This document shows, piece by piece, positions 2,449 to 54,200 of a stretch of 64,000 nt of DNA. The stretch comes from an uncultured Clostridia bacterium (lineage in GTDB: Bacteria > Bacillota > Clostridia > Oscillospirales > Acutalibacteraceae). A model generated the notes under the pieces. That model saw only the letters and a list, made by a program, of their open reading frames with translations. It ran no database searches and was not told the DNA's origin. How positions within the stretch are numbered: position 1 is the first letter of the stretch; the number at the start of each line of letters is the position of its first letter. Position numbers and translations under genes: made by a program. The stretch is taken from assembly GCA_945912145.1 (NCBI GenBank), contig CAMEBF010000001.1:434001-498000 (forward strand), read 5' to 3'.

Positions 2449-2483
2449 AAAAAAAGCCTCGTCTCTGACATTAGAGACGAAGC
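2449..2483 (-). terminator. T-box-controlled intrinsic terminator
   Basis: On the minus strand GCTTCGTCTCT pairs with AGAGACGAGGC around the loop AATGTC and is followed by seven T residues. Its 5' arm overlaps the 3' side of the T-box antiterminator, giving the mutually exclusive structures expected of this class. Confidence 0.93.
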
Positions 2484-2695
2484 ATAAGTCCGTGGTACCA
2501 CTCTACTTGGTGAAAAATCACCCACTCATTTCACATCTGCAAAAAGCAAATATGGTACTTCTTTAACGATGAAGCTCCGTTCTTCCTACACGACCGCCGA
2601 AAAGACGGTGTTCAGTCGACCGCTCGAAGGAGAGATACGATCACTCACGGCTACAGTCTCACACCAACCGACTGCTCTCTGAAAACACCGTACCG
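2449..2695 (-). promoter_or_regulatory. T-box riboswitch leader, probable leucine (CUC) specifier
   Basis: Minus-strand leader between the promoter and leuA. Stem I is closed by ACGGTGTT (near 2690) pairing with GAACACCGT (2605-2613). It carries the AGAGAGCAG and GGTTGGTGTGAGA elements. The specifier region reads CTC just before TCCTTCGAG, which suits tRNA-Leu. The T-box itself, AGAGTGGTACCACG (about 2490-2505), has the UGGU that would pair with an acceptor end carrying discriminator A, as in tRNA-Leu. It is followed by the terminator at 2449-2483. Uncharged tRNA-Leu should stabilise the antiterminator and turn on leuA-leuC. The base after the specifier is U rather than the usual purine, so codon assignment is inferred. 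Confidence 0.94.
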
Positions 2696-2739
2696 AATGA
2701 CCCTTTAGCCTTGTCATTGCGTTTATCTGTATTGCTGTC

Positions 2740-44498: not shown

Positions 44499-44555
44499 AT
44501 AACATTTGTTTTATAACACCTGTTTTATTATAGAATATTGTTAATGTTTTGTCAA
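44499..44555 (-). promoter_or_regulatory. Consensus promoter with tandem TetR operators
   Basis: Minus-strand TTGACA (44550-44555), 17-bp spacer, TATAAT (44527-44532). Immediately downstream are two 14-bp direct repeats AAAACARRTGTTAT (44513-44526 and 44499-44512), each centred on AACA-NN-TGTT. Both lie between the -10 and the tetR ribosome site, an arrangement typical of repression by road-block or polymerase exclusion. Confidence 0.85.
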
Positions 44556-49134: not shown

Positions 49135-49202
49135 GATGATTCACCTCTTCAGAGAAATCATATGCAGAAAAATAAGTTTTTAGAATTTTTTTCATGGAGC
49201 AC

Positions 49203-49231
49203 TTGACAAATGCTGCAAAGTGCTTTATAAT
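49203..49231 (+). promoter_or_regulatory. Perfect consensus promoter with no downstream gene
   Basis: TTGACA (49203-49208), 17-bp spacer, TATAAT (49226-49231). No coding region follows on this strand before the terminator at 49311-49346. Confidence 0.88.
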
Positions 49232-49237
49232 GTGTCT

Positions 49238-49346
49238 GTAAATAGCGAAAAACACAAGATGTTGTAATATTACTGCTTATCCTCTTATCATATAAAACAA
49301 TCCTTGAGAAAACAACAGGCGGAAGAAATTCCGTCTGTTGTTTTTT
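49238..49346 (+). ncRNA. Candidate orphan small RNA, about 109 nt
   Basis: Transcript predicted from the perfect promoter at 49203-49231 to the intrinsic terminator at 49311-49346. It has no open frame longer than a few codons. The body is AU-rich with a 10-base palindrome GTAATATTAC (about 49264-49273). TGTTGT just before that palindrome can pair with ACAACA in the 5' arm of the terminator, so two alternative folds are possible. Neighbouring genes are both on the other strand, so it is not a leader for them. Identity unknown; I do not recognise it as 6S, SRP or tmRNA. Confidence 0.65.
49311..49346. terminator. Bidirectional terminator between the small RNA and comM
   Basis: AACAACAGGCGGAA pairs with TTCCGTCTGTTGTT around GAAA, followed by a T-run on the plus strand. 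On the minus strand the same stem is followed by GTTGTTTTC, which would end comM transcription. Confidence 0.85.
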
Positions 49347-49356
49347 GTCCCGCCGA

Positions 49357-50898
49357 TTATTCCACAGAACCGGTATTCCAGAATTTACGGTCAAGACTAC
49401 GGTATTGAATCGCCTCGGAAATATGCCTGACATCAATTTTTTCGACACCCTCCAGGTCGGCGACGGTTCGCGCTACGCGGAGGATTTTATCATAAGCTCT
49501 TGCCGAGAGTCCTAATCGGTCAAAAGAATCCTTCATCATGGCCGCGGCTCCCTCGGTCAATACACAGTATTTCCGCGTCATTTCCGGCGTCATATGCGCA
49601 TTGGAGGTGATTCCGGATCCGGAAAAACGCTGCTGCTGAATGCGACGCGCTGTATTCACTCTGGCCTTGATCGCTGCGGAGCTCTCCCCTTTTTCCGCAT
49701 CGGTCAGTTCTTCAAACTTCACCTGCGGAACTTCAATATGAATATCCAATCGATCAAGAAGCGGTCCTGAAACTTTGGCAAGGTAGCGAGCCGGTGCTCC
49801 CGGCGGACAGGTACATTTTCTTGTCGGGTGTCCGTAGTAACCGCAGGGACAGGGATTCATCGCGCAGACAAGCATCACCGAACACGGATAGGTTAAGGTT
49901 CCTGCGACGCGGGAAATAGAAACCACGCCGTCCTCAATCGGCTGCCGCATGGATTCCATGGCCGCTCTCGAAAACTCCGGCAATTCATCCAAAAACAATA
50001 CGCCGTTGTGTGCCAGAGAGATTTCGCCGGGCTTCGGCACGGAACCGCCGCCGGACAAACCCGGAGCAGATACCGTATGGTGCGGCGAACGGAACGGTCT
50101 GCGACGAATCAGCGAAACATTTTTCGGCAATTTCCCCGCAACAGAAAAGATTTTAGTTGTTTCGAGTGACTCTTCAAAGGTCATATCCGGCAGAATCGAC
50201 GGAATCCGCTTGGCGAGCATACTTTTTCCCGAACCGGGAGGACCGATCAGCAAGATATTATGTCCGCCCGCAGCGGCGACTTCCAATGCGCGTTTTGCCT
50301 GATACTGTCCCTTTACATCAGAAAAATCAGCATCGTAGAATGCCGTACTATCCTCCTCAAAACCGGCAAAAACGGCAGGCTCAATCATCTCTTCGTCGTT
50401 GAGATGGGCAATGAGCTGACGAACCGTCTGAACGGGATAGATTTCAATACCATCGACAACAGAGGCTTCAGCTTCATTTTCGGCCGGAATGAAGATGCGC
50501 TTGATTCCACAGTTGCGCGCTTCGATCACCATCGGCAGAACGCCGTTGACGTGCCGGACTTCCCCACCGAGCGATAATTCACCAATAAAAGCAGAACCTG
50601 ATAAATCGCAGACGAGCTGCTTCGACGCCATCATCATCGCGATCAGAATCGGGAGGTCATAAATCGGGCCTTCTTTTTTGATATCAGCCGGAGCGAGATT
50701 GACCGTGATATGCAGATTCGGGAAATCAAAGCCGCTGTTTTTCATCGCGGCGCGTACTCGCTCTCTCGATTCCGTAACCGCCGTATCGGGTAGGCCGACA
50801 ACATCAAATTTTGCCTTTCCCATGGAGATATCCGCTTCAATCTGAACCATATAGGTGTGCATACCGAAAACGCCGACACTCATTACCGTACCAAACAT
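49357..50898 (-). CDS. comM: YifB/ComM family Mg-chelatase-like AAA ATPase
   Basis: 513 residues. The N-terminal ChlI-fold domain (about 1-190) starts MFGTVMSVGVFGMHTYMVQI. The AAA+ core has Walker A LIGPPGSGKSMLAKRI (about 215-230) and GVLFLDELPEFSR as Walker B. A four-Cys element NPCPCGYYGHPTRKCTCPPG is near 350. ComM in naturally transformable bacteria is a branch-migration helicase acting on recombination intermediates; that role is by family. ATG at 50898 has GAGG 8 nt upstream; a TTG six codons earlier is in frame. Confidence 0.92.
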   Translation of the reverse strand: MFGTVMSVGVFGMHTYMVQIEADISMGKAKFDVVGLPDTAVTESRERVRAAMKNSGFDFPNLHITVNLAPADIKKEGPIYDLPILIAMMMASKQLVCDLSGSAFIGELSLGGEVRHVNGVLPMVIEARNCGIKRIFIPAENEAEASVVDGIEIYPVQTVRQLIAHLNDEEMIEPAVFAGFEEDSTAFYDADFSDVKGQYQAKRALEVAAAGGHNILLIGPPGSGKSMLAKRIPSILPDMTFEESLETTKIFSVAGKLPKNVSLIRRRPFRSPHHTVSAPGLSGGGSVPKPGEISLAHNGVLFLDELPEFSRAAMESMRQPIEDGVVSISRVAGTLTYPCSVMLVCAMNPCPCGYYGHPTRKCTCPPGAPARYLAKVSGPLLDRLDIHIEVPQVKFEELTDAEKGESSAAIKARVNTARRIQQQRFSGSGITSNAHMTPEMTRKYCVLTEGAAAMMKDSFDRLGLSARAYDKILRVARTVADLEGVEKIDVRHISEAIQYRSLDRKFWNTGSVE

Positions 50899-50962
50899 AT
50901 CCTTAGCCTCACTCAAGTATTTGTTTGCTATATTCTACTATAAAATATCATAACAGTCAAGC

Positions 50963-51012: not shown

Positions 51013-51255
51013 TTAGGAAGTGTACACGCTGACGTCGGCCGTCGGAACGTCGTAGCAAACGGAATCGTTTCCTCCGGGAGGCGTTGAGGTACAATTCACC
51101 ATATCCGAGAAAAGAATCAGATTCATTTCCTCATCCTTAACACCGCAAATGTAGGGTGCCACGTTCGTTGATATATAGGCGCACCCCGCAGCAATACTTG
51201 TTGCCAATTCAAAGCTATCAAACATGATATTCGGTTTTGTATAAGATTTTTTCAT
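51013..51255 (-). CDS. Small four-cysteine protein downstream of the GH2 enzyme
   Basis: 80 residues, MKKSYTKPNIMFDSFELATS then IAAGC. ATG at 51255 has GAGGTG 6-7 nt upstream and lies 30 bp below the giant gene's stop, so both are on one transcript ending in the terminator at 50963. The first 24 residues (KPxIMFDSFELAT-SIAAG) have the look of a conserved leader seen on short clostridial proteins of unknown role. The rest holds Cys25, 37, 55 and 67, spaced 12, 18 and 12. There is no hydrophobic signal peptide and no maturation enzyme nearby. It could be a modified or exported peptide, or a small metal-binding partner. Function not known. Confidence 0.72.
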   Translation of the reverse strand: MKKSYTKPNIMFDSFELATSIAAGCAYISTNVAPYICGVKDEEMNLILFSDMVNCTSTPPGGNDSVCYDVPTADVSVYTS

Positions 51256-51284
51256 AACTTCCACCTCTTTCATATTATTCAGCA

Positions 51285-54200
51285 TTAAACCGTACCGCCG
51301 GATACGAGCGTGACAAGCTTTTTGAAGAAGTCAACGAGCCTCTCGAAGAATCCAATTAACTTCTCAAGGAATGTCAGTTCCGGCTCTTCCGGAGGCGCCT
51401 CAACAGTTACTGTAATCACAACAGGTTCATCGCCTGCTGTATAACCGTTCTCATAAGCACCGGTAATTGAGTAGGTATAGGTGCCGGACTCGGTTTCCGA
51501 AAGCGTGACCGTCCACTGCTTAACCTCGGCATCGTCAATCGTTTCGACATAGCTCTCAATTGCTTCCGGCGTGATGACCTTACCGTTGGCATCGCGGATA
51601 ATCAGCGAGTCCACATCGGTCGAGGTCGAAACCTTGACGACGATCTCATCACCTGCCGTAACGGTATCGCTTGCAACCGTAACATCATCCGGCTCTATTG
51701 CAAGATCCGCTTCCGAAGTCAGTACTGCAGCACGAGCAAGCGAGAAGGTCGAGCGCGTTGACATCAGCATAAACGGACTTGCTTCTTCAGCCACAGGACC
51801 ATCGCTCTGTGTCGTCTGAGCCTGCTGCTTGTAGTAACCGTAGCCGGCAGTCGGGAATGTCCATTTGATGTTCGTCACCGAAAGGATCGTATCTGTTGTC
51901 GAGTTATTGCGAATAACGATTGTTCCGGTTGTGAAATACGTATTTCCGTTTTCATCCGTATAAACAGTGCCATCTTCGTTCGTAACTCTCGTCCAAGTCA
52001 GATTCAGACTATCAATGATGGAATAATACATATCGGAAGACGATGCAATCTGCAGATCAAGGGAATTCAGTATTGCCTGATCGGAAAGATTGGCTATTGT
52101 CATTGTTGCCTGAGCGTTTCCGACAGCTTTAGCCCCAATCTGAACATCGTGCGGAATCTGGTTTGCCCAGATTTCAAAAGCTACCGCCTGATCCTTTGTG
52201 AGATAGAGCTCATTGTTGGGACCGGCTGCAAGATAATCGGAAATGTTTTCCGTCCTGGGAATACCGTCAATAAATACGACACCTTCAACAATCTGAGCGG
52301 AGATGCCGGTGTTTGTAAACTCGTCGGCACCGATCAACATATTACGAAGCTCGAGATAATCGGGGTTCGATTCTTTGTCCGTCGTGTAATCGGACGAAAT
52401 GGTGGACGGCAGGGAGGAGCCTGCGACGCCTGCGGGATCGTAAATGCGAATCGCATCAATATAGAGATCATATTCGCCCGTCTTGGAAATATCCATCTTG
52501 GAGGAATACATCGGCGTAATCGTAACCGTATAAGTACCGTACGCCAACCCTTCGACCTTGATGACAGGAATCTGATACAAGGCGTTATTATCCGTCAGAG
52601 ACTTATCAACAATCCAACCGAAGGCAAAGGCCTCTTCGAGATTACCGCTGTTCTCCGTTACGACATTCATATTCGCGTCGTAATAGGTCGGTGTTCTGGT
52701 GTAATCCGTCTTATCCGCATTGAAGTAAAGCGGCGTTTCGGTAACCGTCAAAGTCGGATTGCCGGAGGCATCCGCATAGAGCTGACCGTATGAGTAGCCA
52801 TAGTAGGTATTAACCGTATGGTTCCGGACTTGATTACCGTCTGCGTCTTTCACAACGACATTGAGCGTACCGGTATCTTTGGACGTAACGCTGATGAGAT
52901 CAAAACCAGTACCGGCGAACGTGAACTCCGCCTTCGGCCAAGCGGAACCGGCGCCTCCGCTGAATTTAGAATTCGGATTGTTCTTCGCGCTGACAGTCAC
53001 ATAATGCGCCGAAGAGTTGCTGTACTGCGCCATCGAAGCATAGGTATCATCATGACCGTAAACATTCGCGCTCACATCGCCGACAAGATCGGCTGCCTGA
53101 TAGGAATCCGGTTTTGCAGAAAGTCCGTCATCCAAGTCCTCCTGCCAGATACCGTAATTTGCGGAGTTTGTCTCACCAGTCGGGATCGAACCGTCCGTGT
53201 AGGTAACACCGCCGTTGAAATCGTCTTCAAAATAAACGGTCGTTGCGGGGATAACGGTGACTTTCTCATAAACATAATACACCGTTCCCTCTTCGTAGGT
53301 GGTATCACCTGTAACCTCAGCACACAGATAGAAGCTGTCCTCATTGGTAAACGACATGGTTTTAGGTTGATACGTCACGGTACCGTCACGATTGATTGTG
53401 AAATCTCCGTACTGACCTGCATAGGTAAGCGTACCGCTCTCCGGGAATTCCGTCAGGCTGGTGGGTTTCTTAAACTGTACCTGATTCTCTGTGCTGCCGA
53501 GAGCCGACGTCATACCGATATAGTTGTAGGTAAGATCAGCCGGTTTTGTATCTTTTTCCGTATTGTTGGATTTTACGTTGTATGTGAGCGGAAGACCGTA
53601 ATCCGCAACCAGCGTCTGTTCTTCAAACGAAACGTAGTCGGAAATTTTCTGAATGTTGAAGGAGATATAGCAGTTCGATTCGTTTGAACCACGTTCCAGA
53701 TAATAGAACGAGAACGTATGCGTCTTGCCATCCGTTGCAACAGCGTGAAGTTTTTCAAGAGCCGCTCTGTTCTGGGCACCGAAAGCAGTGCTGTTAATCA
53801 ATGTCAGATTATCATCAGTATTCATCGTGTCATAACTGAAAGTAATGCCCTCGGTGGAATTAACTACAGAGTTGTGCGCAGTATCGGCTACATACTGATA
53901 GGTAACAGACTGCTGTGAGAAGTTGATGGAGGCTGAACGCGCACCGTGAATACCGCCGTTGTCCAGAACCAGCACATTATCGATGTAAACGAGAACGTCG
54001 TCATCACCGGAGAAATCGAAGACAATGTCATTGCCGTCACCATAGTGACCGGATTCCGGGATATAGAATTCTGTCGTGAAGCTCATACCGAAATGATAAA
54101 TACCATTTTCCGCGTTTGCCGTTTCAGCCGTCGATGCCAAATCAACCGAGCTGGTGCCGTCTGCATTCAACTGATAGTTAAAGGGGAAGAAACCTTTACC

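Follow-up and report, generated by a model that had tools for sequence, protein, structure and literature searches.

A Genus-Specific Small RNA of Gut Clostridia Predicted to Belong to the NrdR Regulon

Regulon small RNAs placed under one metabolite- or stress-sensing transcription factor are exemplified by RyhB under Fur and FnrS under FNR. NrdR is, to our knowledge, a repressor present in nearly all bacteria, and its clear targets are the operons for ribonucleotide reductase. The locus analyzed here, in a 64-kb stretch of DNA that we call the window, brings these two themes together. It resembles RyhB and FnrS in being a stand-alone short RNA with a predicted operator over a strong promoter, an intrinsic terminator and a conserved unpaired core, whereas it differs from them in its predicted regulator, NrdR (dATP/ATP), and in its restriction, as far as found, to one genus; any sequence relation to them was compared via Rfam alone. 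With the NrdR regulon it shares two 16-bp boxes over a promoter with spacers of 15–16 or 26 bp, in a motif also carried by the genus's nrdD promoters, but the gene predicted to be controlled is a small RNA rather than a ribonucleotide reductase, and the second box falls within the transcribed part.

Regulon small RNAs governed by a transcription factor are a known architecture; this particular regulator and this RNA family appear to be new. A survey of the open-access literature on NrdR with small RNAs yielded no NrdR-controlled small RNA, and a keyword check of papers naming both NrdR and small RNA found none described. Taken together, the sequence comparisons below lead us to regard the locus as a probable genus-specific, stand-alone small RNA of ~109 nt that would be a member of the NrdR regulon, derepressed at low dATP and probably base-pairing with mRNAs.

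A stand-alone transcription unit conserved within one genus

The unit begins with a sigma-70-type promoter, TTGACA-17-TATAAT, at 49203..49231 on the + strand (TTGACA 49203-49208, TATAAT 49226-49231, spacer 17 bp), which matches the consensus at 12/12 positions and was rightly called perfect in the preliminary description. The window holds two perfect promoters in total, this one among them, while chance gives a mean of 0.017 per shuffled 64-kb window and shuffling of the small-RNA intergenic region produced a perfect promoter in 0.02% of trials. The second promoter of the form TTGACA-(16-18)-TATAAT lies at 44555 on the - strand.

Taking the start site as 7 nt past the -10, the predicted small RNA occupies 49238..49346 (+), and its prediction draws on the fold z-score, a covariance model of eight species and the lack of an Rfam match. 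About 75 nt of non-coding RNA separate the promoter from an intrinsic terminator, a stem-loop with T-run at 49307..49346 (+), whose arms (49307-49324 and 49329-49346) enclose a GAAA loop. The terminator stem measures 14 bp, or 18 pairs when A/U pairs are counted, with 98.6% of cells paired over the eight species and one pair varying among them as AU, GU, GC and UG. The fold energy of the 109-nt transcript is -27.7 kcal/mol (z = -5.1); the earlier reading of a unit of about 109 nt closed by an intrinsic terminator is borne out. Its view that nothing codes between promoter and terminator also holds, as no small ORF common to the conserved loci was found inside the unit.

Both flanking genes lie on the - strand, as had been described: an M23 peptidase gene (SpoIVFA-like, PF01551; 48334..49134, -) is the divergent neighbor upstream, and comM (49357-50916, -) flanks the small RNA on its 3' side. 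Read on the - strand, the terminator may serve comM transcripts as well. A 90-aa protein, MLNNMKEVEVMKKSYTKPNIMFDSFELATSIAAGC..., is encoded at 51013-51285 (-), just 3' of a 2609-aa secreted glycoside-hydrolase-like protein, and could be a short precursor peptide. The downstream genes differ among the eight species, and most lie on the opposite strand and point toward the RNA; G003 is an exception. Because it has its own promoter and terminator, no ORF and no fixed 3' gene, which is the pattern of a trans-acting sRNA, the site is a stand-alone RNA gene and not a leader, in agreement with the preliminary description, and it is almost certainly a genuine RNA gene.

Clear relatives of a 201-base query were found within the genus only. 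Promoter, body (with its core) and terminator, on whose conservation in relatives the preliminary description had staked its proposal, are kept together in 8/11 genus genomes, the window's genome (G000) counted; the small RNA was not found in G005 (95% complete), G010 (86%) or G002 (70%), of which G002 and G010 are incomplete genomes. Turned to one orientation, the loci of the eight species can be aligned over the whole unit, -35 through T-run, including the hexamers, a 5' palindrome, the core and the terminator arms; the -35 is TTGACA and the -10 is conserved in 8/8. The core, ATATAAAACAATCCTTGAGA at 49290..49309 (+), is a candidate pairing region with an anti-Shine-Dalgarno-like UCCUU and is nearly invariant in all eight species over its 20 nt (AUAUAAAACAAUCCUUGAGA, equivalent to CATATAAAACAATCCTTGAGAAAACAACAG). 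The ~20 nt between the 5' palindrome and the core align poorly across the same species, and the core would thus seem to be constrained independently.

A covariance model of the RNA, built from the eight species and searched over 398 genomes of the family, returned no convincing homologue beyond the genus; its weak matches include L061 and L066, which are nrdD promoters of other genera with strong box pairs. Scanning 84,980 genomes for the core motif gave ten contigs, seven of them from genus members, and the other three (Oceanirhabdus, a Heimdallarchaeote and Bacteriovoracia) carry no NrdR pairs and were taken as chance. The earlier statement that no known RNA family is recognizable agrees with Rfam 15, which gave no match at the gathering threshold for this locus or the seven related loci. 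Permissive thresholds gave only weak matches, mostly terminator-driven, the best being STnc240 (RF02074) at 22.2 bits, where the cut-off is 55; STnc240 resembles the small RNA in its terminator-like 3' hairpin with T-run, and the likeness is essentially that of the terminator alone. The sole Rfam match of the window at the gathering threshold is a T-box leader at 2470-2726 (-).

A predicted NrdR operator over the promoter

The published NrdR box consensus is acaCwAtATaTwGtg (PMC4009431), and NrdR proteins bind box pairs with spacers of 14-17 and 24-27 bp, which sets the box centers three or four helix turns apart (PMC12051234). Boxes were scored with a symmetric matrix trained on 26 examples from nrdD promoters, both of the genus and of its relatives, and on none from an RNA promoter; these training boxes had been chosen by hand for their agreement with the published consensus. 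Predicted box 1, GTGCTTTATAATGTGT at 49220..49235 (+), overlaps the -10 and scores 6.9 bits with this nrdD-only matrix (11/16 to the published consensus). Predicted box 2, ACACAAGATGTTGTAA at 49252..49267 (+), covers approximately +15 to +30 of the transcribed region, scores 16.9 bits and is the best single box in the window. The two boxes are separated by 16 bp in the window's genome.

As a pair, they place the small-RNA promoter first in the window, at 23.8 bits vs 8.9 for the next pair at 14-17 bp spacers and vs 17.3 when any spacer from 10 to 31 bp is accepted, and 40 Mb of simulated DNA contained no box pair of at least 20 bits. The published consensus alone also ranks this promoter first, less sharply, at 23/32 vs 21 for the best other site. 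A genome scan with the published consensus at three mismatches was uninformative, its matches being no commoner than those of a reversed control; one of them sits just upstream of nrdD.

Box 2 was found in 8/8 species at 10.9-21.0 bits, and the 5' palindrome that it occupies (in G001, ACACAATATATTGTAT) is similar to the NrdR box consensus. In G004 it reads ACTATATGTAGT, a paired A-T to T-A swap, and variation of this kind in the palindrome agrees with the w positions of an NrdR box. Box 1 scores below box 2, and where it lies over the -10 its conservation is partly promoter conservation. With spacers from 10 to 31 bp scanned, the best spacer is 16 bp in G000, G001, G004 and G008, 15 bp in G006 and 26 bp in G003 and G009, while the best pair of G007 scores 20.5 bits at 28 bp (19.5 bits at 26 bp). 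Box pairs at spacings that NrdR accepts occur in 7/8 species, and the 28 bp of G007 falls just outside the published range. The boxes overlap the promoter in these species, with box 1 either on the -10 or between the -35 and the -10, the latter being needed for the best pairing in G003, G009 and G007.

The regulator and its familiar target are both encoded in the genus: nrdR is present in 10/11 genomes (TIGR00244 above the cut-off in G000 and nine others), as is the class III (anaerobic) reductase gene nrdD in 10/11, and no PF02867 reductase was found in the genus genomes. The nrdD promoter of G000 carries the box pair CCACTCCATAATGTGT and TCACTATATCTTGTAT with the same 16-bp spacer as at the small RNA, and the nrdD promoters of several genus genomes, G000 among them, have box pairs 32 bp apart. 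Two nrdD types occur in the genus, beginning MRIIKRNGSEE... and MYKVIKRDGK... (loci L087 in G000 and L088 and L099 in G004), and G004 has both; each type has an NrdR box pair of its own. Motif, spacing and promoter overlap in the compared genomes make it very probable that the small RNA is under NrdR control.

Alternative readings of the palindrome and the neighborhood

The same sequence features could be read in a different manner, in which the small RNA is real and free of NrdR control, ACAA-NNNN-TTGT forms a short hairpin near the 5' end of the RNA, and the box match is coincidental. The palindrome does lie inside the transcript, and its four pairs are kept in 8/8 species with one double change; however, a 4-bp hairpin made mostly of A-U pairs is weak, and neither the minimum-energy nor the centroid fold contains it. 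The motif agrees with the genus's own nrdD boxes and in nearly all species has a partner box at a spacing typical of NrdR. We consider this reading improbable.

A further possibility, to which we give an equally small chance, is an NrdR operator without a functional RNA, in which the boxes would serve as a decoy or regulate the divergent M23/M50 genes, the transcript being a by-product. The M23 peptidase belongs to a SpoIVFA/B-like M23/M50 pair that adjoins the small RNA in 8/8 species, and the boxes lie between this constant upstream neighbor and the RNA body. However, after the promoter, conservation is strongest in the RNA core and terminator, 3' of the boxes, and the boxes straddle the RNA start at a distance of at least 85 bp from the M23 start codon. 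These observations were further strengthened by G005, which keeps the M23 gene (56% identity) and has neither the small RNA nor a box pair upstream of it, so that the boxes track the RNA and not the peptidase gene, and the operator-only interpretation is weakened. The M23/M50 pair itself is preceded by a conserved AAAAAATTCTAAAA block (window 49140-49195, - strand reading) and in some species by a GCATA-like sequence in the same region (- strand); the two are possibly a sporulation-sigma promoter for the pair, apart from the small RNA.

The preliminary description had also entertained a role in sporulation or competence, which the neighborhood does not favor: comM is the immediate neighbor in G000 and G004 only, the peptidase gene of G005 stands without RNA or boxes, and no sporulation or competence link of the small RNA emerged from the neighbor genes of the genus loci.

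An antiterminator switch in a leader or attenuator has hardly any probability, for although TGTTGT is able to pair with the 5' arm of the terminator in this genome, as the preliminary description proposed, the six-pair helix is complete here alone among the species, shows no compensatory change (column 30 pairs in 2/8), and is followed by unconserved genes that in most species lie on the opposite strand and run toward the RNA. A riboswitch, T-box or attenuator leader was likewise rejected, there being no conserved same-strand downstream gene and no conserved alternative fold. The palindrome holding TGTTGT would instead be part of box 2, half of the predicted NrdR operator, which had gone unnoticed in the preliminary description.

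Proposed regulation, targets and significance

Under the preferred reading of an NrdR-controlled small RNA, plentiful dATP would place NrdR with ATP and dATP on both boxes, and transcription would be blocked. The first box covers the -10, or in three species probably falls between the -35 and the -10, and the second lies just past the start. As dATP falls, NrdR would be released and the consensus promoter would make the RNA alongside nrdD mRNA. This sequence of events follows NrdR biochemistry (PMC12051234), which predicts an RNA repressed at high dATP and made at low dATP. The RNA would then most likely pair with one or more mRNAs through AAAACAAUCCUUGAGA, in which the anti-Shine-Dalgarno-like UCCUU lies, and the terminator hairpin would both end and protect it.

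Action by base-pairing is, in our judgment, somewhat favored over other modes. In the consensus fold, the core segment AAAACAAUCCUUGAGA (ATATAAAACAATCCTTGAG) stays unpaired; it is nearly invariant, and its UCCUU could cover Shine-Dalgarno sequences. Target searches in the eight genomes, with TCAAGGAT-ATG, an 18-mer at three mismatches and TCAAGGRTTG-ATG, found no common target gene; most pattern matches fell inside other coding frames, and the few at plausible gene starts were unrelated. Duplex energies against the genes of the window and the nrdD and nrdR regions placed nrdD low, by a method that ignores intra-RNA folding and does not discriminate.

One caution from this site is that an RNA switch can be mimicked by an operator palindrome within the transcribed sequence. 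Overall, the sequence evidence suggests that the small RNA is probably part of the cell's response to dNTP supply, a function for which our literature survey gave no small-RNA precedent. We lean slightly toward a broader reading in which the NrdR regulon of these gut Clostridia has a post-transcriptional arm, a dNTP-responsive sRNA that would reprogram the translation of non-reductase mRNAs at dATP shortage, for example those of replication, cell-division or nucleotide-consuming genes. If true, a conserved NrdR-controlled small RNA would link dNTP supply to post-transcriptional control.
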